DNA of 55,618 bases, taken from NCBI GenBank assembly GCA_013002205.1, contig JABDKN010000085.1, forward strand, positions 1 to 55,618. Direction: 5' to 3'. The notes under the pieces were generated by a model that did not search any database, had not been told where the DNA came from, and worked only from the letters and a program-made list of their open reading frames with translations. This DNA comes from Granulosicoccus sp. GTDB taxonomy: Bacteria; Pseudomonadota; Gammaproteobacteria; Granulosicoccales; Granulosicoccaceae. Within the stretch, counting starts at the first letter, position 1, and the number at the start of each line of letters is the position of its first letter. The position numbers and the translations under genes were made by a program. This document shows, in pieces, positions 5,250 through 16,034 of the stretch.

Positions 5250-5894
5250 TCAACGAGACTGTCCAAACAGGGCAGTACCGAATACCTCTTCCGGCAACCT
5301 CGCCGACAGCGACAGGGAACCACTTTGCTGCAAGGTGACCATCTTGCTGAACAGTCGCCATGGTGCATCATCACGTGGCTGGATATGAATCCTGAATCGG
5401 CCACTGCCGGGCAACTGTACACCTGGCGCCAGATAGCGTTCACCCCCCAGGGATTGCAGTAGCGTTTCCCCGTCACGCTCTGCCTGTGTCACATGCACCC
5501 AGCGAATCTGCAGAGTCTCAGGCCAGCGGAAGTCGGCCGTGGCCGCGGCCAGGTCATCCTGCAGCGAGGCAGGCAACTCGGGTGCCCGCTGCGCCACTTC
5601 AAGGATGAGTCCTTCCTGGGAAGGCCTGAGCGTGGCATGCAGACCCAGCAATGCTGCTGTCCGATCACGGTCTATGCGCTGGTTGATCGCCTTGCCTTCC
5701 TTGTAGTAGTCGTCCACGACCAGCGAGTTGTTGGCAGTGAGTCCCAGGTACAGCATCATGCCGCCCAGTGCCATGGACACAAAGGGAATACTGATCAGGA
5801 ACCAGGGCCAGCCATAGCGATACCAGGGCTTGAACGGTAGGTCACGATCATTGTCAGGCGGATTGATGGCAGTGCTCAGGGTTGGCCCGGTCAT
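5250..5894 (-). CDS. ccoH: FixH/CcoH family cbb3 oxidase assembly protein
   Basis: Membrane-anchored protein needed for cbb3 oxidase assembly or stability in other proteobacteria. The 214-residue product starts with a short polar region, then the FixH signature: KPWYRYGWPWFLISIPF near residue 25, one membrane helix, and NNSLVVDDYYKEGKAIN near residue 60. The remainder is a soluble periplasmic beta-rich domain. Its ATG overlaps the end of ccoG by four bases, giving tight coupling. Family match is strong even though FixH proteins diverge after the first 80 residues. Confidence 0.9.
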   Translation of the reverse strand: MTGPTLSTAINPPDNDRDLPFKPWYRYGWPWFLISIPFVSMALGGMMLYLGLTANNSLVVDDYYKEGKAINQRIDRDRTAALLGLHATLRPSQEGLILEVAQRAPELPASLQDDLAAATADFRWPETLQIRWVHVTQAERDGETLLQSLGGERYLAPGVQLPGSGRFRIHIQPRDDAPWRLFSKMVTLQQSGSLSLSARLPEEVFGTALFGQSR

Positions 5895-7303
5895 TGAATC
5901 TGTTCCGGCAGGAAGAAAGATGTTTTGGCCGTCTGCACGACTGTGGGGTCGTCGGCCGCACGTACAACGAACTGGACTGGATTGCTTCCCGTCTCGCCTG
6001 AATCCGGCTCGGAGCGAACGCGCACCGCCACCACTCGATTGGATGCACCCGGCACGGTAACACGTCGTTCCGAGTCGATGCGCATACCCGGAAGCCCCTG
6101 CACCGACAGATCGAAGCTGCGCTCGAATTCAGCACTGTTGATCAGCATGACCTGATAGACGTTCTCGATCACGCCATTCTTCACTTCACGAGACAGGGCT
6201 CCCCGGTCCCTCATCACATCCACCTTGACCGGTGTGCGGGTCAGGATGTGACCGAACAGAATGCCTGTTACGCTCAGCAGAATGACACTGTATACCAGTA
6301 CCCGCGGTCGAAATACGCGCCTCCACAACTGCGCCCGGGACCATCCCTGCTCCATGCCATTGAGCGTATCGTACCTGATGAGCCCTTGCGGACTGCCCAC
6401 CTTCTGCATGACCTGGTCGCAGGCGTCGATACAGGCTGCGCAGCCTATACATTCGTATTGCTGACCATCGCGTATGTCGATGCCGGTCGGACATACCTGC
6501 ACACACAGACTGCAATCCACACAGTCACCCTTGCCTGCCGAGCCCGATTTTCGGGAGCGGGCTCCGCGCGGCTCACCGCGACCCGGATCATAGGTGATGA
6601 TCCAGGTGTCCCGGTCGAACATGACACCCTGAAAACGGGCGTAGGGGCACATGTACTTGCACACCTGCTCGCGCAGGAATCCGGCATTGCCATAGGTTGC
6701 AAATCCATAGAACAGTATCCAGAACGTCTGCCATGGACCCAGTGACAGGCTGAACAACTGCCCCAGCATGGAGCGAATGGGCGTGAAATACCCGACGAAG
6801 GTCAAACCGGTCCATAGCGCAACGGCAATCCAGGCCGCATGCTTGGCAACTTTGAGACGTAACTTGCGGGACGAAAACCCGGCTGCATCCAGCTTCATCC
6901 GTCTTGCACGATCACCCTCTATCCGGCGTTCGATCCACATGAAGATTTCCGTGTAGACCGTCTGCGGACAGGCATAGCCACACCAGAGCCTGCCGGCCAC
7001 CGTGGTAAACAGAAACAGGGACATGGCTGAAATGATCAACAGGCCCGTCAGGTAGATGAAGTCCTGCGGGTAGAGGATCAGCCCGAAAATATGAAATTTG
7101 CGTGCGGCAAGATCGAACAGCACAGCCTGCCGGCCATTCCAGTTAAGCCACGGCAGGCCATAGAAAAGCACCTGCGTGAACCACACGAGGATCCATCGCC
7201 ACCTGGCAAATACACCTGACACCGAGCGCATGTACACCTTGCGGCGTACCTCCAGCAGCATTTGCTCCTGTCGGATACCGCCTGGCGCTGAAGAAGTAGA
7301 CAT
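5891..7303 (-). CDS. ccoG: Cytochrome c oxidase accessory protein CcoG (RdxA/FixG)
   Basis: Membrane ferredoxin-like protein that, in studied relatives, reduces copper for the CcoN copper site. The 470-residue sequence has an N-terminal helix set (about 37-57, 80-104, 155-180, 190-205), the conserved GRLWCGYACPQTVYTE region near 104-119, and EQVCKYMCPYARFQG near 212. Two [4Fe-4S] Cys clusters follow: C261, C264, C267, C271 and C285, C288, C291, C295. After another helix near 340, the C-terminus is an Ig-like periplasmic domain. It lies 73 bases after ccoP and overlaps ccoH. All key Cys residues are present, so it should be functional. Confidence 0.96.
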   Translation of the reverse strand: MSTSSAPGGIRQEQMLLEVRRKVYMRSVSGVFARWRWILVWFTQVLFYGLPWLNWNGRQAVLFDLAARKFHIFGLILYPQDFIYLTGLLIISAMSLFLFTTVAGRLWCGYACPQTVYTEIFMWIERRIEGDRARRMKLDAAGFSSRKLRLKVAKHAAWIAVALWTGLTFVGYFTPIRSMLGQLFSLSLGPWQTFWILFYGFATYGNAGFLREQVCKYMCPYARFQGVMFDRDTWIITYDPGRGEPRGARSRKSGSAGKGDCVDCSLCVQVCPTGIDIRDGQQYECIGCAACIDACDQVMQKVGSPQGLIRYDTLNGMEQGWSRAQLWRRVFRPRVLVYSVILLSVTGILFGHILTRTPVKVDVMRDRGALSREVKNGVIENVYQVMLINSAEFERSFDLSVQGLPGMRIDSERRVTVPGASNRVVAVRVRSEPDSGETGSNPVQFVVRAADDPTVVQTAKTSFFLPEQIQ

Positions 7304-7376: not shown

Positions 7377-8312
7377 TCAGTTGACTTCCGCCACTTTCTC
7401 CGAGGTGTTGGACAGACTCCAGATATACGCGGCCAGCACATGCGCCTTGCCTTCTCCCAGCAGCTCACCAAAGGCTGGCATTCGGTTGTTCAGACCGTTG
7501 CTGATGGCGGTTTTCACCGAATTGAGCGATCCGCCGTACAACCATATGTCGTCGGTCAGATTGGGTGCGCCGATGACCGGGTTGCCCTGGCCCTCCGGAC
7601 CATGACAGGCGGCACACACGGCAAACTTGGGTTTACCCGCCTCCGCCAGTGCCTCATCGTGATTGCTGCCGGACATGGACAGGACGTAGTTGGCAACCGC
7701 ATCGAGGTCGGCCTCGGTATTGCCGATGGCTGCCGCCATGGCCGGCATCACCGCATTACGCCCGTTGAGTATCGTGTTCTTGATGTAGGCCGGATCACCG
7801 GTTCCCAGCCATTCGTTGTCACTGAGATTGGGAAATGAGCGCCCACCTCGAGCATCCGAACCGTGGCACTGGCTGCAATACGTCAGGAACAGTCGCTCAC
7901 CCATTGCGAGCGCTTCCTGATTGGCCGCTACGGCAGGAATTTCCTGTGCCAGGTAGCCGGCAAACAAGGGAGCGGCGACTTCGTCAATCGTGGCGACTTC
8001 CGTCTCGTATTGACCTGACGAGGACCATTTGAGCGACCCCGCAAACGTACCCAGGCCCGGATACAGGAACAGGTATATCACGCCGAAGAGACAGGTGATG
8101 TAAAACAGGTACAGCCACCACCGCGGCAGCGGATTGTTCAATTCCTGCAGGTCTTCATCCCAGACATGGCCAGTGGATTCGACCACCCCGTCGACCGACG
8201 TTGCCGTTTTGGCACGGGAGGTCAGCCACGCAACAATGAAACAGGCCAGTATGGACAGCAGGGTACCTGCCGCGATGAAAATGCTCCACCCACTGTGAAA
8301 GAAATCAGCCAT
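7377..8312 (-). CDS. ccoP: cbb3-type cytochrome c oxidase subunit III (CcoP, dihaem)
   Basis: Dihaem cytochrome c subunit that takes electrons from soluble cytochrome c and passes them to CcoO. I chose the ATG at 8312, which has a strong GGAGG ribosome site seven bases upstream; it gives 311 residues, the family's usual length. A longer in-frame reading up to 8519 would add 69 residues that look unlike CcoP and overlap most of ccoQ. There are two membrane helices (about 9-29 and 65-85) and two haem c motifs, CSQCH at 146-150 and CAACH at 233-237. It overlaps the end of ccoQ by eight bases. Confidence 0.95.
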   Translation of the reverse strand: MADFFHSGWSIFIAAGTLLSILACFIVAWLTSRAKTATSVDGVVESTGHVWDEDLQELNNPLPRWWLYLFYITCLFGVIYLFLYPGLGTFAGSLKWSSSGQYETEVATIDEVAAPLFAGYLAQEIPAVAANQEALAMGERLFLTYCSQCHGSDARGGRSFPNLSDNEWLGTGDPAYIKNTILNGRNAVMPAMAAAIGNTEADLDAVANYVLSMSGSNHDEALAEAGKPKFAVCAACHGPEGQGNPVIGAPNLTDDIWLYGGSLNSVKTAISNGLNNRMPAFGELLGEGKAHVLAAYIWSLSNTSEKVAEVN

Positions 8313-8565
8313 GTGACACCTCCTTCCCTGAAGTTGATCGAGCTTTCTGTGGCTCGCCTGCCTGTGTTGACCCTGAGGAGGAATTTTCCCTGCCCGTGCG
8401 TGCCTGCTCAATCGTGCGCTGCTGCATCTCGTCATCGGCAAAAGGCAGATTGGCCGCCTCATCAAAGCGCTTCTTCGAATGGCCGCTGTAGGCCCAGACA
8501 ACGATGCCGATAAAGGCAACGAAGCTCAACAGGGTGATGACGATCCGCATATCCATGACTCCCAT
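8305..8565 (-). CDS. ccoQ: cbb3 oxidase small subunit CcoQ/FixQ, long C-terminal tail
   Basis: Small single-helix subunit (residues about 5-25, MRIVITLLSFVAFIGIVVWA) that stabilises the cbb3 complex. With the ATG at 8565 it has 86 residues; the stop of ccoO (TGA) shares its last base with this ATG, and AGAGGAG lies at good spacing. A GTG three bases earlier is also possible. After the typical YSGHSKKRFDEAANLPF stretch, the tail is about 40 residues longer than in common CcoQ proteins (around 50-60) and is rich in Gln, Ser, Glu and Lys, with no helix. Order and overlaps with ccoO and ccoP support the call. Confidence 0.9.
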   Translation of the reverse strand: MGVMDMRIVITLLSFVAFIGIVVWAYSGHSKKRFDEAANLPFADDEMQQRTIEQARTGRENSSSGSTQAGEPQKARSTSGKEVSHG

Positions 8566-9179
8566 CACTGGACTCCTCTGCCGGCCGTCCCCAGCACCTG
8601 CAGATAGGCGATGATGGCGTCAAGCTCGTTCTTGCCTTCCAGCATTCCCGGTGCTGCGGCGATCTGCTCATCACTGTAAGGGTGTCCCAGCATACGCAGC
8701 ACATTCATCTTCCTGGTGATACCGGCAGGTTCGAGATCAGTCTCGGCCAACCAGGGATAGGCCGGCATGATCGAGTCCGGCACCACATCGCGCGGATCAT
8801 TCATGTGTACCCGGTGCCATTCATCACTGTAGCGCCCGCCGACGCGGTGCAGATCCGGCCCGGTGCGCTTGCTGCCCCACTGAAACGGCCGGTCGTAAAC
8901 AAACTCACCGGCAACCGAGTACGGCCCGTAACGTTCAGTCTCGGCGCGGAACGGACGAATCATATGTGAGTGACAGTTGTAACACCCTTCCCGAACATAA
9001 ATGTCCCGACCCTCGAGTTGCAATGCGTCATAAGGCTCCAGGCCGGCAACCGGCTCTGTCGTCGACTTCTGGTTGAACAGGGGGACGATCTCTATCAGTC
9101 CACCCACTGATATCACCAGTACGATCAGGACAATCATCAGGCCGATATTCTTCTCGACCAGTTCATGTGTCAGTTTCAT
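8565..9179 (-). CDS. ccoO: cbb3-type cytochrome c oxidase subunit II (CcoO, monohaem)
   Basis: Monohaem cytochrome c subunit that passes electrons from CcoP to CcoN. I chose the ATG at 9179, with GGAGAG before it; it gives 204 residues beginning [11 protein letters not shown], as the family does. An upstream in-frame extension to 9281 would run into ccoN and looks non-coding. One N-terminal membrane helix (about 12-33) is followed by a periplasmic domain with the haem c motif CYNCH at 66-70 and the family stretch [17 protein letters not shown]. It lies 25 bases after ccoN. Confidence 0.96.
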
Positions 9180-9204
9180 TTTGCGATCTCTCCGGTTGCC
9201 AGGA

Positions 9205-10731
9205 TCAGGATTGTGCAACCGGCTCGACGCCAGCAGCTGATCCAACAGACTGCCTGCCGGTACTGACCGGTATGGGCGCAACGATCTGCCTGCCCTGGCG
9301 AATGGTCATGATCATGTTGTAGAGCATCAGCAGCATACCGCTCAGGTACAGAAGTCCGCCGAAGAAGCGCATGGTGTAATACGGATGGGTTGCCTTGACC
9401 GCTTCGATGAAGGCATAGACCAGCGTACCGTCAGGGTTGGTCGCACGCCACATCAGACCCTGCATGACACCGGCTATCCACATGGAGGCGATGTACAGCA
9501 CGATGCCCAGGGTCGCGATCCAGAAATGCACTTCGATCATCCTGACGCTGTACATTTCCTTGCGGCCGAACAGTCGTGGTATCAGGTAGTAGATGGCACC
9601 CATGGAGATCATGCCCACCCAGCCCAGCGCACCGGAATGCACATGACCGATGGTCCAGTCCGTGTAATGAGACAATGCATTGACCGTCTTGATGGACATC
9701 ATCGGCCCTTCAAACGTGGACATGCCGTAAAACGACAGGGAAACGATCAGGAACTTGAGAATGGGGTCGGTACGCAGTTTGTGCCAGGCACCCGAGAGCG
9801 TCATGATGCCGTTGATCATGCCACCCCAGCTTGGTGCCAGCAGGATCAGCGAGAACACCATGCCGACCGACTGCGTCCAGTCCGGCAAGGCGGTGTAATG
9901 CAGGTGGTGCGGACCGGCCCACATGTAGGTGAAGATCAGCGCCCAGAAATGCACGATGGACAAGCGGTATGAATATATCGGGCGGCCAGCCTGCTTGGGT
10001 ATGAAGTAGTACATCATCCCCAGAAAACCGGCAGTCAGGAAAAACCCCACCGCGTTGTGGCCGTACCACCATTGGATCATGGCATCCTGCACACCCGCAT
10101 AGGCCGAGTAGGATTTGCCCAGCGTGACGGGAACTGCCGCACTGTTGACGATGTGCAACACGGCGATGGTCAGGATGAAGGCGCCATAAAACCAGTTGGC
10201 CACGTAGATATGCGGTGTCTTGCGCTTGACGATGGTACCGAAGAACACCAGCGCGTAGGACACCCAGACGGCGGCGATCAACAGATCGATCGGCCATTCC
10301 AGCTCGGCGTATTCCTTGGACTGGGTAATGCCCATGGGCAAGGTGATGGCAGCGGCGACGATCACCACCTGCCAGCCCCAGAATGTGAAGGGTACCAGTG
10401 GCCCTCCCCACAACCTGGCCTGACAGGTTCTCTGCACCACGTAGTAGGACGTGGCAAACAGCGCGCTGCCGCCAAATGCAAAGATGACAGCATTCGTGTG
10501 CAAGGGACGCAACCTGCCGAACGTCAACCAGCTGATACCACCGTTGAGCTCAGGCCAGGACAACTGGGCAGCGATGACCAGGCCGACCAGCATGCCAACC
10601 ACCCCCCAGACCACCGTCATGACGGAAAACTGACGAACAACCCGGTAGTTGTAGGTGTCCCTGGATTCGACCTGCAGTTCGTCCTGATCAGAGGCGGCCA
10701 GACCTGCAGCCTCGCTCATGGTAGTACTCAT
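9205..10731 (-). CDS. ccoN: cbb3-type cytochrome c oxidase subunit I (CcoN)
   Basis: Catalytic subunit of the high-affinity terminal oxidase: reduces oxygen to water and pumps protons. The 508-residue protein has about twelve helices and all expected ligands: H78 (low-spin haem b, in [12 protein letters not shown]), H225 (copper, [10 protein letters not shown]), H275 and H276 (copper, GPHHLHY), the probable cross-linked Tyr at 269 (FTYMWAG), and H363 and H365 (haem ligands, IGHVHSG). The first 25 residues are a polar extension; GAGGA lies about ten bases before the ATG. It opens the ccoNOQPGH unit and is preceded by an FNR/ANR box at 10807-10820, pointing to induction at low oxygen. Confidence 0.98.
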
Positions 10732-10806
10732 ATGATTGCATTCCTCGGGGAATTCGGTTCAGCTGTGCCGAATGCCGCATGCTACTAGCGCTTGATCCGC
10801 CGCTTC

Positions 10807-10820
10807 TTGATCTTGGTCAA
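10807..10820 (-). promoter_or_regulatory. FNR/ANR box upstream of ccoN
   Basis: TTGATCTTGGTCAA matches the TTGAT-N4-ATCAA consensus at 9 of 10 positions. Its centre is about 82 bases before the ccoN ATG. If it acts at -41.5, transcription would start near 10772 with a leader of about 41 bases, and a weak -10-like TAGTAG (minus strand, about 10782-10787) sits where it should. An almost matching box with the same spacing lies before the DUF2189 gene (15806-15819). The match and geometry are seen; binding is inferred. Confidence 0.75.
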
Positions 10821-10951
10821 CCTCATTGGACTGATGATCTACAGTGCATCAGTGAAATCGGCACAACACCTTGGAGACAGATGCACAAGCAGGCTTGTAC
10901 AGCACCTCCACCGTGAGCCGCCACTGGCCCCTGCCGATTGCCCGCCATGGC

Positions 10952-11164
10952 TCACTGCCTCTCATGACGGCCCGTACGATCGGCTGCGGACAGGGTTTTC
11001 CCATCCTCCGGCTCCTCCGCTGTCCGATCATCATCCAGCAGAATGCTCCAGGCTGGCCCCTGGTCGTCGTCAAACTGCCCGCCGCGATTCATGCGAAAGA
11101 AAAACAGCACTGCAACCAGCACTGCCAATACTGACAGCGGTATCAGAATGAAAAGCGATTCCAC
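10952..11164 (-). CDS. ccoS: cbb3-type oxidase assembly protein CcoS
   Basis: Small membrane protein required for cofactor insertion into the cbb3 oxidase. The 70-residue product has one N-terminal helix (MESLFILIPLSVLAVLVAVL) followed at once by the CcoS signature RGGQFDDDQGPAWSILLDDD, then a polar tail. Its start overlaps the end of ccoI by 22 bases, the usual ccoI-ccoS arrangement. The 220 bases between it and ccoN hold the ccoN promoter and no gene. Confidence 0.95.
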   Translation of the reverse strand: MESLFILIPLSVLAVLVAVLFFFRMNRGGQFDDDQGPAWSILLDDDRTAEEPEDGKTLSAADRTGRHERQ

Positions 11165-13836
11165 AGTCGATTCCCGGCCAGTGGCCTGGTGAGAGCGGGC
11201 AATGAGCCGCCGGCGGACCAGAGACGCTGGGCATTGGCGACCACCAGCAGTGAACTGCCAGCCATGCCCACCGCCGCAGCCCAGGGAGGCACGAAACCCA
11301 GTGCAGCAAGTGGAATGGCGGTAGCGTTGTAGAGGATGGCCCAGGCAAGATTCTGACGCACGATCTGCATGGTCTGGGCAGATTTGACCAGCAGCGCGTC
11401 CAGGCCTTCCAGGCCAGGCATCAGTGATATCACGTCAGCCGCCGTCCTTGCCAGTGCTGTCGCCTCGCCTGCTGCCAGGGAGACATCGGCACTGGCCAGT
11501 ACCGGCGCATCGTTGATGCCATCACCGACCATCAGTACCGTCGCCCCGCCAGCCTGCAGATCGGCCACATACCCCTGCTTGTCTGCCGGTGTCGCAGCCG
11601 CGGCGAACCGGCTGATCTGCAGCGACGCTGCGACCGCCTCCACGACTTCCCTCCGGTCTCCGGACAACAGGTGGACCATGAGCTGGCGATCGTGCAAGGC
11701 ACGTATCAGTGAACTGACTTCGGGTCGCAGCGTATCGCGGATCAGGAAGCGCGCCAGGACCTGGGGTTCGCCTGCAAGCTCTGCCATGGATAGTGTGTCG
11801 ACATTACCGGGCGGGGCGCCGGGTTCGTGGCATGCGCTCAGCATCATGACATCGGCTGGCAGTGGGCGCCGCACCAGGTAAACCTCACTGGATGCACGCG
11901 CTGCTTGTTCGTCATCCACTTGCCAGCACCTGATCGCTGGCGCGCTCAGGGCGCACCAGCTGGCAGAGCCCAGGAACAATGCCGATGCCCTTCCCTGCTC
12001 AGGCTTCAGCATCGCTGCCACCCCCTGTCCGGCAGCGTGTTCCAGCCTGATCGCCGGCTCGGCCAGCCGCTTCAGCTCGGCAATGGCATCGGCCGGTGGC
12101 GCCTGCTCATCACGCCGCACCGATGCGTCCAGCGTCAGATCCGCGAGCGCCAGTCGCAGGGCGTTTGCACAGGGATGGGTCGAACCTGTCTCGAGCGCCG
12201 TCGCCAGTTGCAGCACTGCCTGCTGTTCCTGGCCCGGGCCGAGCTGTATCGCACTGACCCTCGGAGAACCAGTGGTCAGGGTGCCTGTCTTGTCGAAGAC
12301 GACGTCTGTCACTCTGGACAGTGTTTCCAGCGCATGTCCACGAGTGATGAGCATGCGACTACGCAGCAAAGCTCCGGTGGTGGCCGCCATTGCTGCGGGT
12401 GTCGCCATCGACAGGGCGCAGGGACAGGAGACCACCAGAACGGCAATCGCCGTGCTCGCCGCCCGCGATGGGTCAACGTACAGCCAGAGCATCCAGACCA
12501 GTGCAGCGAGTAGCAACAGAGCGGTGACGAACAGGGTAGCGATACGGTCTGTCATCCTGACCGTCGCCGGCTTTTCACTGGCGCCTCGATCGATCAGGCG
12601 ATCTATGACGGACAGCGTACTGGCAGCCTGACGGCGCAATACGCGAAGTTGCACGGGCGCTCCGCACAGCAATGCCCCTCCGGCAAGTTCATCACCGGGA
12701 CCTACCGCGATCGGTGCGGATTCTCCGGTTACCAGCGCATTGTTGACGGCGCTGCGACCTGAGCTCACGACTGCATCCACCGGTATCCGCTCGCCATTGT
12801 TGACGATGATCAGGTCATCGAGATCCAGTCGTGCAGCCGGTACTGTTTCCACGACATCGCCGAGAATCCGCTGCGCAGTCTCCGGCGCGGCCGCGCTGAT
12901 GTCATCCACGGTGCGCATGGCGCGACGCCGTGCAGACCATTCCAGATAGCGCGCGCCAAGCAGCAGGAACACGAACATGGCTACCGAATCGAAGTAGATT
13001 TCCCCCACTCCGGTTATCGTTGCCCGGACGCTGGCAAGAAATGCGGCCAGGATGCCGATACTGACCGGTACATCCATGCCTGGCTGGCGATGGAGCACAT
13101 CACGCCAGGCGCCCTGCAGGAACGGCACGGCACTGTAGAGCAGAACCGGTGTCGTCAGTACCAGGCTCGCCCAGCGCAGTAGATTCTCATGCGCAGGATC
13201 GATTTCACCGGCATCACTCAGGTAGGCCGGCAGGGCGTACATCATTACCTGCATGGTGGCGATACCGGCCACGAAAAGGCGCTGCAGAAAAATACGGGAC
13301 TCACGCCTGAGTGCAAGCTCACGCTCACGCGCGTCGAAAGGTGCGGCCTGGAAACCCATCTCGGACACTCGACGCAGAATGTCGGACAATCTGAGGCGTG
13401 TGGCGTCGAAGCGAATGCTGGCACGTGCACTTGAAAAATTGACACTTGCCCGCGCAACGCCGGGCAAGCTGCCGACCGACCGTTCGAGCACCCATACGCA
13501 GGCACCGCACCTGAGTCCAGCCACGGAAAGATTCAGGTCAACCAGGTCGCTGGATTGGCTTGCTTCACCGGGCTCGACCGGCTGCAGGTAGCGTTCACTG
13601 AACTCCGGTTCGTCGAATACGGCCAGTTCGTCCAGCCTGGCTGCCAGATCGTCGGGTAGGACACCAAACTCGGCAGGTTCGGTGCGAAAACGGTAATAGT
13701 CGCCAAGACCTGCATCGACGATGGCCCGCATGACCGCCTCGCAGCCGGCACAGCAGACATCGTGACGCTGGCCGTCGAACTCGACTTGCCAGCGCCCGGA
13801 TTGCAGAACGTTTTCCGTGCAGTGATAGCACCTCAT
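11143..13836 (-). CDS. ccoI: Copper-exporting P1B-type ATPase CcoI (CopA2-like)
   Basis: P-type ATPase that moves copper out of the cytoplasm for cbb3 oxidase assembly. The ATG at 13836 gives 897 residues beginning MRCYHCTENV, the usual start of this subfamily; upstream codons overlap the neighbouring gene and look unlike it. Order: an N-terminal Cys-rich metal-binding region (C3, C6, then CCAGC at 28-32), a heavy-metal-associated domain with CGAC at 110-113, the membrane CPC motif (VVSCPCALSMATP), phosphorylation site DKTGT, the THPCANAL motif, and hinge MVGDGINDAPVLASAD. It starts 29 bases after the TauE-like gene and overlaps ccoS. The N-terminal metal domain plus location distinguish CcoI from detoxifying CopA. 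Confidence 0.95.
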   Translation of the reverse strand: MRCYHCTENVLQSGRWQVEFDGQRHDVCCAGCEAVMRAIVDAGLGDYYRFRTEPAEFGVLPDDLAARLDELAVFDEPEFSERYLQPVEPGEASQSSDLVDLNLSVAGLRCGACVWVLERSVGSLPGVARASVNFSSARASIRFDATRLRLSDILRRVSEMGFQAAPFDARERELALRRESRIFLQRLFVAGIATMQVMMYALPAYLSDAGEIDPAHENLLRWASLVLTTPVLLYSAVPFLQGAWRDVLHRQPGMDVPVSIGILAAFLASVRATITGVGEIYFDSVAMFVFLLLGARYLEWSARRRAMRTVDDISAAAPETAQRILGDVVETVPAARLDLDDLIIVNNGERIPVDAVVSSGRSAVNNALVTGESAPIAVGPGDELAGGALLCGAPVQLRVLRRQAASTLSVIDRLIDRGASEKPATVRMTDRIATLFVTALLLLAALVWMLWLYVDPSRAASTAIAVLVVSCPCALSMATPAAMAATTGALLRSRMLITRGHALETLSRVTDVVFDKTGTLTTGSPRVSAIQLGPGQEQQAVLQLATALETGSTHPCANALRLALADLTLDASVRRDEQAPPADAIAELKRLAEPAIRLEHAAGQGVAAMLKPEQGRASALFLGSASWCALSAPAIRCWQVDDEQAARASSEVYLVRRPLPADVMMLSACHEPGAPPGNVDTLSMAELAGEPQVLARFLIRDTLRPEVSSLIRALHDRQLMVHLLSGDRREVVEAVAASLQISRFAAAATPADKQGYVADLQAGGATVLMVGDGINDAPVLASADVSLAAGEATALARTAADVISLMPGLEGLDALLVKSAQTMQIVRQNLAWAILYNATAIPLAALGFVPPWAAAVGMAGSSLLVVANAQRLWSAGGSLPALTRPLAGNRLWNRFSF

Positions 13837-13865
13837 GGGATCATCGTCGCACAATCCGCCAATGA

Positions 13866-14627
13866 TCAGGCATGGGTCATGGACATCATCCTGCCCCACA
13901 GCAGCAACCCTGCTGCACCGAAGAGCATGATCAGCATCCCGGCAATCCGCCTGATTCGCTGATTGCGACTGGCACGCGCCAGCCATTGTCCCGATAACCC
14001 GAGTAACATCAGATTAGGCAATGTTCCCAGACCGAAGGTCAGCATCAGCAATGCACCCTGCTGCCAGCTACCGGAGACCAGCGCTGCACTGAGCACGGCG
14101 TACACCATCCCGCAGGGCACCAGACCCCACAAGGATCCAGCCAGTATCGAATTGACATGACCCGCCCCCTGGAGTCGACTCGTCGCCAACGGCCGGACCA
14201 GTTTCCAGACAGGACTTCCCCAGGATTCAACCAGGACCCCGATTCGCCTGAAACCGAACACATAGAGACCCATCAGAATCACCAGCACATTACCGATGAA
14301 GTAGGCCACTTGCTGTACCGGCAGGATCGAATGCATCATCCAGGCGACGGAACCGACACCACCGGCCAGTGCACCGAGTAGTGTGTAGGTCGCGATGCGA
14401 CCCAGGTTGTAGGATGCCACGGCCACCAGTGGGGACACGGTGTGGGTTTTGAGCGTCGATGAGCCTGCAGCCACCACGGATACGGGAAACCGGGGGTATC
14501 CGGACATCGGCCTCTGTTGCATCATGCCAAGGGCGCTGACGATGCCACCGCACATGCCGGCGCAATGCACACCGCCGAGAAGACCCGTGAGAAATACCGC
14601 CAGCAGTGAGAGTTCAGGTAGAGCCAT
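13866..14627 (-). CDS. Sulfite exporter TauE/SafE-like membrane protein (COG2836 type) of the cbb3 cluster
   Basis: A 253-residue membrane protein with about six or seven helices. Near the N-terminus it has the signature GLLGGVHCAGMCGG, whose two Cys and one His are typical of the COG2836 group found next to ccoI and ccoS in many gammaproteobacteria. The Cys/His pattern and location suggest handling of copper or thiols during oxidase assembly rather than sulfite export (inference). It lies 29 bases before ccoI and 39 bases after DUF2788. Family call firm; biochemical role not known to me. Confidence 0.87.
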   Translation of the reverse strand: MALPELSLLAVFLTGLLGGVHCAGMCGGIVSALGMMQQRPMSGYPRFPVSVVAAGSSTLKTHTVSPLVAVASYNLGRIATYTLLGALAGGVGSVAWMMHSILPVQQVAYFIGNVLVILMGLYVFGFRRIGVLVESWGSPVWKLVRPLATSRLQGAGHVNSILAGSLWGLVPCGMVYAVLSAALVSGSWQQGALLMLTFGLGTLPNLMLLGLSGQWLARASRNQRIRRIAGMLIMLFGAAGLLLWGRMMSMTHA

Positions 14628-14641
14628 GATCTGTTTTTTGA

Positions 14642-14659
14642 CGCCGTGGATTCACGGCG
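14642..14659. other. Perfect 7-bp hairpin between DUF2788 and the TauE-like gene
   Basis: CGCCGTG-GATT-CACGGCG forms a 7-base-pair stem with a four-base loop in the 39-base gap. On the minus strand, the direction of the operon, it is followed by TCAAAAAA and not by a T run, so it is unlikely to be an intrinsic terminator there. It may be an mRNA processing or stability element. Structure seen; role unknown. Confidence 0.45.
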
Positions 14660-14666
14660 ATTTTGT

Positions 14667-14876
14667 CTAAATATTCATCCAGCGCTGAATCACGCTCTTC
14701 GCTATGAATCCCAGCATGCCGAATCCAAGCACGAAGAACAGCACGATGGTGCCCGTCCTGCCGGCTTTGGATTCCCTGGCAAGATTCCAGACGATGAAGA
14801 GCATGTACACCATGAAGCCGGCCAGACCAAAGGTCAGGCCAAAGCTGGCGATCTGTTGTTCAGTGAAACCAAACAC
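14667..14876 (-). CDS. DUF2788 small membrane protein
   Basis: A 69-residue protein with two hydrophobic helices (about 9-31 and 43-63) separated by a basic loop (ARESKAGRTGT). It matches the DUF2788 pattern: MFGFTEQQIASFGLTFG at the start, YMLFIVWNLARESKAG in the middle and LGFGMLGFIAKSVIQ at the end. No function is known to me. It starts on the base directly after the DUF2189 stop and shares that gene's upstream FNR/ANR box, which ties it to the ccoI-ccoS unit. Confidence 0.85.
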   Translation of the reverse strand: MFGFTEQQIASFGLTFGLAGFMVYMLFIVWNLARESKAGRTGTIVLFFVLGFGMLGFIAKSVIQRWMNI

Positions 14877-15731
14877 TCAGCTGACAGTATTTCGCTGGAC
14901 CAGGTCACGGTAGGCATGCCAGGTGGCATGTCCGACCAGGGGGGCTGTGATCAGGAGCGGTAGAAAACCAGCGGCCAGACTCAGGCCGATGATCACCACG
15001 ATCAACAGTGCCCATAGATACAGGGCCCCGGGGTTGGCATGCACGCTGCGCACACTGCTGAATACGGCCATCATGGTGTCTGCCCGGCGATCGAGCATCA
15101 TGGGTGCCGCGATGACACCGATGGCAAACACGAGTGAGGCGAAGACGAATCCCACGCCTGACCACAGCAGCAGGAATTGCGGATTATCCAGCGAAAATAT
15201 CATGCTGAGAATACCTTTCACCGTCGGGAAACTGGTGGTCGATACGAGGGCGAAGAGAATCAGCGACACCCTTGCCCAGACGATCATGGCAAAGGTCAGC
15301 ATGATGGCAAAAAAGGCAAGACTGCCCGGATTCCTCGACCAGCAGGTGAGCGATTTGAGCAGACTGGCAGACCCGGAGGCTTCGTGCTGCCGCGACAGGT
15401 CGTAGATGCCGGTACACAGAAATGGCCCCATGAGAAAGAAGCCGCCTATCAGCGCCATCGTCAGTTGCCATTTGGTGGCATACACCCAGATGATGCCATA
15501 ACCCATGAGCACGAATATGAGCCCATAGAAACACCCCTGGAATCGAGTGGCGAGAAGATCCTGCCAACCCTTGCGCAGCCAGTTCACCGGGGCATTGACC
15601 GGCACCCGGTTGATCGCCGGCATGGGTGGTGGCAGTGATTCTCCCGTGACGGGATCAACAGTCGCCGCCGGCGCCACGTCACCCTGTGCCGCAGTGCCGG
15701 GATCGTGCAGATTGTCTGAGCTGTTTGACAT
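14877..15731 (-). CDS. DUF2189 integral membrane protein
   Basis: A 284-residue membrane protein with a polar, Pro-rich N-terminus (about 45 residues) and roughly six helices; the sequence from WLRKGWQDLL onward follows the DUF2189 family (GCFYGLIFVLMGYGIIWVY, then LSRQHEASG). No redox ligand motif stands out. It is the first gene of the unit DUF2189-DUF2788-TauE-ccoI-ccoS and lies 75 bases after an FNR/ANR box with a reasonable -10 element (TATGTT). The promoter and operon position make it a candidate accessory factor for the cbb3 oxidase, an inference that no motif confirms. Confidence 0.85.
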   Translation of the reverse strand: MSNSSDNLHDPGTAAQGDVAPAATVDPVTGESLPPPMPAINRVPVNAPVNWLRKGWQDLLATRFQGCFYGLIFVLMGYGIIWVYATKWQLTMALIGGFFLMGPFLCTGIYDLSRQHEASGSASLLKSLTCWSRNPGSLAFFAIMLTFAMIVWARVSLILFALVSTTSFPTVKGILSMIFSLDNPQFLLLWSGVGFVFASLVFAIGVIAAPMMLDRRADTMMAVFSSVRSVHANPGALYLWALLIVVIIGLSLAAGFLPLLITAPLVGHATWHAYRDLVQRNTVS

Positions 15732-16034
15732 GACGCCTCACGGTCAACCCGCCTGGATCATCAACAGGCGAGACGTTAACATAGCGCAGCCATCGCACGC
15801 GATCATTGACCTTGATCAACTCGGATGATGAATGTCCTGCAGATGGCAGACAGGCTGCTCCCCAGCCTCCCTTGCGCCGCTACCCCGGGAATTGCAATAT
15901 GTCATCATGTCCAGTCCACTGCCCGAACCATGCGTCTCCTCCGTCAAGGCAAGGGACTGTTACCGCTTCGTGTGTCTGAGCCGTTCCATCCTGCCCGCCA
16001 TGCGCCCTCTTCCAGCCAGGTCAATGCTCCTCTC
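15732..16034. other. Divergent intergenic region between DUF2189 and NAD synthetase
   Basis: About 300 bases without a supported gene. It holds the FNR/ANR box at 15806-15819 and a -10-like TATGTT (minus strand, 15778-15783) for the minus-strand operon. The NAD synthetase frame stays open through much of the right half, but the extra residues it would add look unlike the enzyme. I found no convincing plus-strand promoter. Confidence 0.6.
15806..15819 (-). promoter_or_regulatory. FNR/ANR box upstream of the DUF2189-ccoIS operon
   Basis: TTGACCTTGATCAA matches TTGAT-N4-ATCAA at 9 of 10 positions. Its near edge is 75 bases before the DUF2189 ATG, almost the same distance as the ccoN box from ccoN. 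Placing it at -41.5 predicts a start near 15771, and a -10 element TATGTT (4 of 6, minus strand 15778-15783) is centred 32 bases downstream of the box centre, as a class II FNR promoter needs. The box is nearly symmetric, so an effect on the divergent NAD synthetase gene is possible but less well placed. Confidence 0.78.

Follow-up and report, generated by a model that had tools for sequence, protein, structure and literature searches.

Conserved FNR-type promoters link genes for DUF2189 and DUF2788 proteins to cbb3 oxidase genes in a predicted low-oxygen regulon of Granulosicoccus

Introduction

Control of cbb3 oxidase genes by FNR is already known, as is the separate control of fixNOP and of a unit carrying fixIS. 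In Sphingopyxis granuli TFA the boxes of ccoN and uspA (TTGAc/t-N4-g/aTCAA) are centred at -41.5 from mapped transcription starts (PMC7713065). Both fixNOP and hemN2-Hsero_3206-fixIS are direct Fnr1 targets in Herbaspirillum seropedicae (PMC5934665), and Pseudomonas has Anr boxes before ccoN (PMC6588701). Our literature search returned nothing relevant on DUF2189 or DUF2788 in connection with cbb3, FNR regulons or ccoI/ccoS; in the accessible part of PMC3388012, DUF2189 is named as a table entry.

Here we analyse a stretch of 55,618 nucleotides of Granulosicoccus sp. (hereafter the window), which resembles these systems in several respects. As in S. granuli, its genome has boxes before ccoN and before a usp gene that follows fnr; in contrast to S. 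granuli, where the starts were mapped, those of the window are predicted, and the accessible text of PMC7713065 has no mention of DUF2189 or DUF2788. As in Herbaspirillum, the structural genes would belong to one unit and those for maturation (fixI, fixS) to another, each under separate FNR control, but the maturation unit begins with hemN2 there and with DUF2189-DUF2788 in the window. With Pseudomonas the window shares the regulator family, the oxidase and the kind of box; the lineage, however, is different, and no DUF gene is mentioned in the accessible text of PMC6588701. What is new, a modest novelty, is the predicted membership of the DUF2189 and DUF2788 genes in the regulon.

Results

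The window is one contig (C67) of a 4.46-Mb genome that is 98.7% complete. Family models recognise the cbb3 oxidase genes ccoN, ccoO, ccoQ, ccoG, ccoI and ccoS in two units, both on the minus strand. One unit consists of ccoN (9205..10731; TIGR00780 over cut-off), ccoO (FixO; 8565..9188), ccoQ (FixQ; 8305..8568), ccoP (7377..8312, start assumed; its translation has two haem-binding CXXCH motifs), ccoG (FixG_C and Fer4_18; 5891..7303) and a probable ccoH (5250..5894), named from its position alone. The assembly-factor unit starts with the gene for a DUF2189 membrane protein (PF09955; 14877..15731) of CysZ-like predicted fold. It continues with genes for a small DUF2788 protein (PF10981; 14667..14876, GTG start assumed) and a DsbD_2-family membrane protein (PF13386; 13866..14627), with ccoI for a heavy-metal (copper) P-type ATPase (11143..13836, start chosen at 13836) and with ccoS (FixS, PF03597; TIGR00847; 10952..11164). 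The models identify the ccoI product as a P-type ATPase with ATPase-cat_bd and HMA domains, and its name comes from its place beside ccoS. An earlier, sequence-only reading of this DNA had labelled the genes in the same way except for one, its 'TauE', which matches Pfam DsbD_2 and no TauE model. Successive genes from DUF2189 to ccoS are separated by 0, 39, 29 and -22 bases, a spacing consistent with a single operon.

Two FNR-type boxes, each with 9 of 10 matches to TTGAT-N4-ATCAA, had been claimed for the two units, and both are present. One, TTGATCTTGGTCAA (10807..10820; minus-strand reading TTGACCAAGATCAA), belongs to the ccoN promoter, and the other, TTGACCTTGATCAA (15806..15819; minus-strand reading TTGATCAAGGTCAA), to the DUF2189 promoter, both in minus-strand orientation. 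On that strand a -10-like hexamer lies 22 bp beyond each box, TAGCAT (10779..10784) before ccoN and TATGTT (15778..15783) before DUF2189. The centres of box and hexamer are 32 bp apart in both cases, in agreement with the 31-32 bases proposed earlier and equivalent to a box centred at -41.5; transcription would accordingly be predicted to start at about 10772 for ccoN and, from a box centre at -41.5, at about 15771 for DUF2189. The reading had also taken as evidence that the boxes lie nearly equally far, 76 and 75 bases, from the ATGs. The start coordinates hold, but we dropped the argument, because from box start to ATG of ccoN there are 165-175 bp in four related genomes (G012, G018, G023, G024) and 89 bp, by the identical measure, in the window. 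The distance to the ATG is thus not conserved and the '76 and 75' are a coincidence; the conserved distance is the one from the box to the -10 element.

Of the 27 genus genomes, several of which are incomplete, six were found to carry the window-type cluster (G000, which is the window genome, G007, G012, G018, G023 and G024). Both boxes are kept in all six, at 12 of 12 promoters, with a single box within the 330 bp preceding DUF2189 or ccoN and TANNNT exactly 22 bp after it. The conservation upstream of orthologues on which the sequence-only reading had staked its claim is therefore present. Before DUF2189 the hexamer is TATGTT, TATGGT or TAGACT; before ccoN it is TAGCAT, TACCAT or TAACAT. Across the 12 promoters the 22-bp gap is invariant, and so are the half-sites except for their innermost bases (T/C and A/G); the four spacer bases, most of the flanks and the distance from box to start codon differ. 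Since G012, G018 and G024 are closely related, the 12 promoters represent closer to 8 independent cases. Both boxes are very likely the operators of class II FNR-activated promoters of the ordinary kind, although some of the -10 elements (TAGCAT, TACCAT, TAACAT and TAGACT) are weak.

A candidate reader of the boxes is encoded on another contig (C187) of the window genome, an FNR scoring 233.9 against a cut-off of 228 (NCBIfam PRK11161). It carries the CX2CX5C motif and has an FNR-type box before its own gene; the gene after fnr matches Usp. Among the 27 genus genomes, each of the six with the window-type cluster, and no other, has an orthologue of this FNR (56-82% identity), all six with CX2CX5C; none was found in the remaining 21, several of which are incomplete (best match 34%). 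A box precedes fnr in five of the six (counting G024, if its shorter start is right). In four of the six there is also a box past fnr, ahead of the following gene, each time with the 22-bp geometry. FNR is the likeliest reader of both boxes, with other readers possible, and the proposal of one low-oxygen regulon joining both units is supported by the 12 of 12 promoters and by the presence in the genome of an FNR with CX2CX5C.

Instead of the oxygen sensor FNR, a nitric-oxide or FixK/DNR-type regulator of the CRP family could be the chief reader. DNR recognises CTTGATnnnnATCAAG, in effect an identical box, according to the accessible part of PMC1274295, and the window genome encodes further CRP/FNR proteins without CX2CX5C, among them a FixK/DNR-like one (L003). 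In addition, of the five ccoN genes of a second, divergent type (see below) with upstream DNA, three (G001, G008 and G026) have a box of the same form, and two (G025 and G007:C305) have none. The three genomes lack an FNR orthologue, which means that some other regulator must be capable of reading their boxes. However, no orthologue of L003 is encoded in the five genomes that share the boxes with the window genome, where its best matches are FNR itself (28-31%), and the distribution of FNR coincides exactly with that of the window-type cluster. We therefore consider a chief reader other than FNR improbable.

The box at 15806 might also serve not DUF2189 but a divergent gene for NAD synthase, with a start at about 16035. 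The box is palindromic, and nadE stands divergently beside DUF2189 in five of the six genomes (the window, G012, G018, G023 and G024). In the sixth, G007, the contig extends 4.4 kb ahead of the DUF2189 box and has no nadE match there, but the box and the -10 element are kept, and in all six genomes the conserved -10 element at 22 bp is on the DUF2189 side. That the box serves nadE instead of DUF2189 is thus very improbable; it may be shared by the two genes. G023 has a further FNR-type box (L245 14223), which precedes the nadE start by about 36 bp.

In the window, boxes with two mismatches allowed are not above chance (22 against 17.3 expected), so boxes of that stringency prove little. In contrast, TTGAY-N4-RTCAA occurs exactly twice in the whole window, as the two promoter boxes, against 0.13 (200 runs) to 0.19 (3000 runs) expected per simulated window of first-order Markov sequence. 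The arrangement of a box, exactly 22 bp and TANNNT, a pattern picked after the hexamers had been seen, is found twice against about 0.002 expected (6 in total in 3000 simulations), and none of the 3000 simulated windows had two. With this excess and conservation at every promoter set against the commonness of two-mismatch boxes, it is scarcely conceivable that the two boxes are chance matches or functionless remnants.

The same geometry recurs elsewhere in the genome. All contigs together contain 55 FNR-type palindromes, compared with 7 matches to the reversed pattern, and 9 against 0 with the 22-bp geometry; for the six cluster genomes pooled, the latter counts are 46 and 4, the weakest contrast being that of G018 (6 against 2). 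We also scanned offsets 0-59 in both directions from 44 sites of the genome other than the window's two (88 directions), counting hexamers with at least four of six matches to TATAAT and T as the last base. At offset 22 there were 10 in 88 directions; at the other offsets the mean was 1.86, and none exceeded 5. As this peak is seen without the window sites, the fixed geometry is a property of this genome's regulon. At one further locus (L021) nqrA and a gene for a multihaem cytochrome are divergent, and the FNR-type box between them (1501) has -10-like hexamers 22 bp away on both sides.

Beyond the genus, we searched 140 gammaproteobacterial genomes, one per genus. DUF2189 matched in 25 of them, with 24 matches over cut-off, and DUF2788 in 16; 76 genomes have a ccoN match over cut-off. 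Such a ccoN match is present in 24 of the 25 DUF2189 genomes (Fisher p = 1e-6) and in 14 of the 16 DUF2788 genomes (p = 0.006), both values carrying no correction for relatedness or genome size. In the other two DUF2788 genomes the ccoN matches are split or lie at a contig edge. Among the 27 genus genomes, DUF2189 is present in 12, ccoN matches in 12 and both in 11 (p = 1e-5), one of these ccoN matches being distant (G019, 32%).

We rejected the idea that DUF2189 is a general FNR target, as boxes are rare among the loci of other taxa. We examined 79 loci (the best 80 of 573 relatives, minus L024, whose contig is as long as that of G024) over up to 350 bp upstream of the match, less at contig ends (as in L052 and L088). 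A box with at most one mismatch was found in three (L080, L094, L100), and TTGAC-N4-GTCAA forms in L042 and L045; none of the boxes listed for these loci has TANNNT at 22 bp in the direction of the gene, the nearest being TACCAC in L100. Thirty-three further DUF2189 loci, which include G130 and the paralogue in the window genome, yielded an exact box upstream in these two, and one-mismatch boxes in L291 and L148. The last of these is from G128, of another family, where a DUF2189-DUF2788 pair follows a one-mismatch box, 22 bp and TATAAA with no cco genes nearby; the predicted start would almost coincide with the ATG. Control of DUF2189 by an FNR-type box is thus chiefly characteristic of the Granulosicoccus group rather than of the family as a whole. 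Upstream of the second DUF2189 gene of the window genome (L175), the box TTGACAATTGTCAA (G000:C100:10639-10652) is followed by 21 bp and TAGAGT; the 15.8-kb contig bearing this gene has no cco match.

A general link of DUF2189 to cco genes was likewise rejected, for the 79 loci and for most of the class sample of 33. Within up to 10 kb on each side (less at contig ends), the 79 loci have no match to ccoN, O, P, G or S, and two weak CcoI-like matches. Three of the 33 loci (L281, L282, L244) have genes of an aa3-type oxidase close by, an identification read from the L244 translation. At that locus, in G130, of another family, DUF2189 is divergent from an apparent aa3 oxidase operon, which is followed by cbb3 genes (L244 6385-14944); an exact FNR-type box (L244 7290) stands between DUF2189 and the apparent aa3 operon. 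In four beta-proteobacterial genera, 10 ORFs in the neighbourhood of DUF2189, picked by length and some probably in the wrong frame, were compared with Pfam, and nothing respiratory was detected; seven were assigned to families (hisG twice, an aminotransferase, dihydrouridine synthase and others). In Methyloversatilis, DUF2189 is found near hisG (L045, L058).

Within the genus there is a second, divergent cco operon, in which a DUF2189 gene (product 30-32% identical) lies between ccoP and ccoI. It occurs in six genomes (G001, G007, G008, G022, G025 and G026; L163, L164, L165, L167, L169 and L170), with ccoN on a different contig in G001 and G026; membership of its DUF2189 in the family was confirmed for G025. 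In a midpoint-rooted tree whose deep branches are weak and whose long branches meet, the DUF2189 proteins of the window type and of the second operon form separate groups, each with full support, and two separate recruitments of DUF2189 into cco operons are likely. The window type groups (100/100) with 13 beta-proteobacterial proteins, mostly from Burkholderiales; around the genes of these 13, the DNA examined contains no cco genes. On this evidence, the link of window-type DUF2189 to cco looks acquired.

An AlphaFold2 model of the window DUF2189 (mean pLDDT 89.8, pTM 0.85) resembles the sulfate permease CysZ (PDB 6d79, 6d9z, 3tx3), the CysZ matches scoring Z 15.4, 13.4 and 12.9. The best of these matches (Z 15.4) spans 198 residues, the greater part of the chain, at rmsd 3.4 and 10% identity. 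PNS1/CTL1 structures scored 14.6, 14.4 and 13.7, and the next row 5.8, values to be read beside the comparison tool's own caution that mostly helical models typically reach a best Z of about 14. Foldseek gave no hit with E under 0.001 for the model (CysZ, E 0.43), and a search of solved structures with the DUF2189 sequence alignment gave nothing even with E allowed to reach 1. From the model, a CysZ-like membrane fold is likely. Sulfate transport is a feature of CysZ, to which DUF2189 is likened by its predicted fold at 10% identity; the likeness does not show transport of sulfate or of anything else.

Discussion

We propose that, when oxygen falls, the FNR encoded on C187 would assemble a [4Fe-4S] cluster and dimerise. 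The dimer would bind TTGAY-N4-RTCAA centred at about -41.5, overlapping the -35 region, and would recruit RNA polymerase to the -10 element that follows after 22 bp. From one promoter the cell would then express ccoNOQPGH, comprising the structural genes of the oxidase together with ccoG and ccoH, and from the other DUF2189-DUF2788-DsbD_2-ccoI-ccoS; the maturation factors and the two DUF proteins would be made together with the oxidase.

More tentatively, DUF2189, with its CysZ-like predicted fold, and DUF2788 could be dedicated factors of cbb3 biogenesis or of solute supply. DUF2189 would then have been taken at least twice into the cco operons of this lineage, once at the head of the FNR-driven ccoIS unit and once between ccoP and ccoI in the second, divergent operon. 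We regard this as possible rather than probable.

DUF2189 and DUF2788 have no assigned function. In one lineage, conserved promoters and operon position tie them to low-oxygen respiration, and co-occurrence with ccoN extends the tie beyond it. Together these links make a role of DUF2189 and DUF2788 in cbb3 assembly directly testable.
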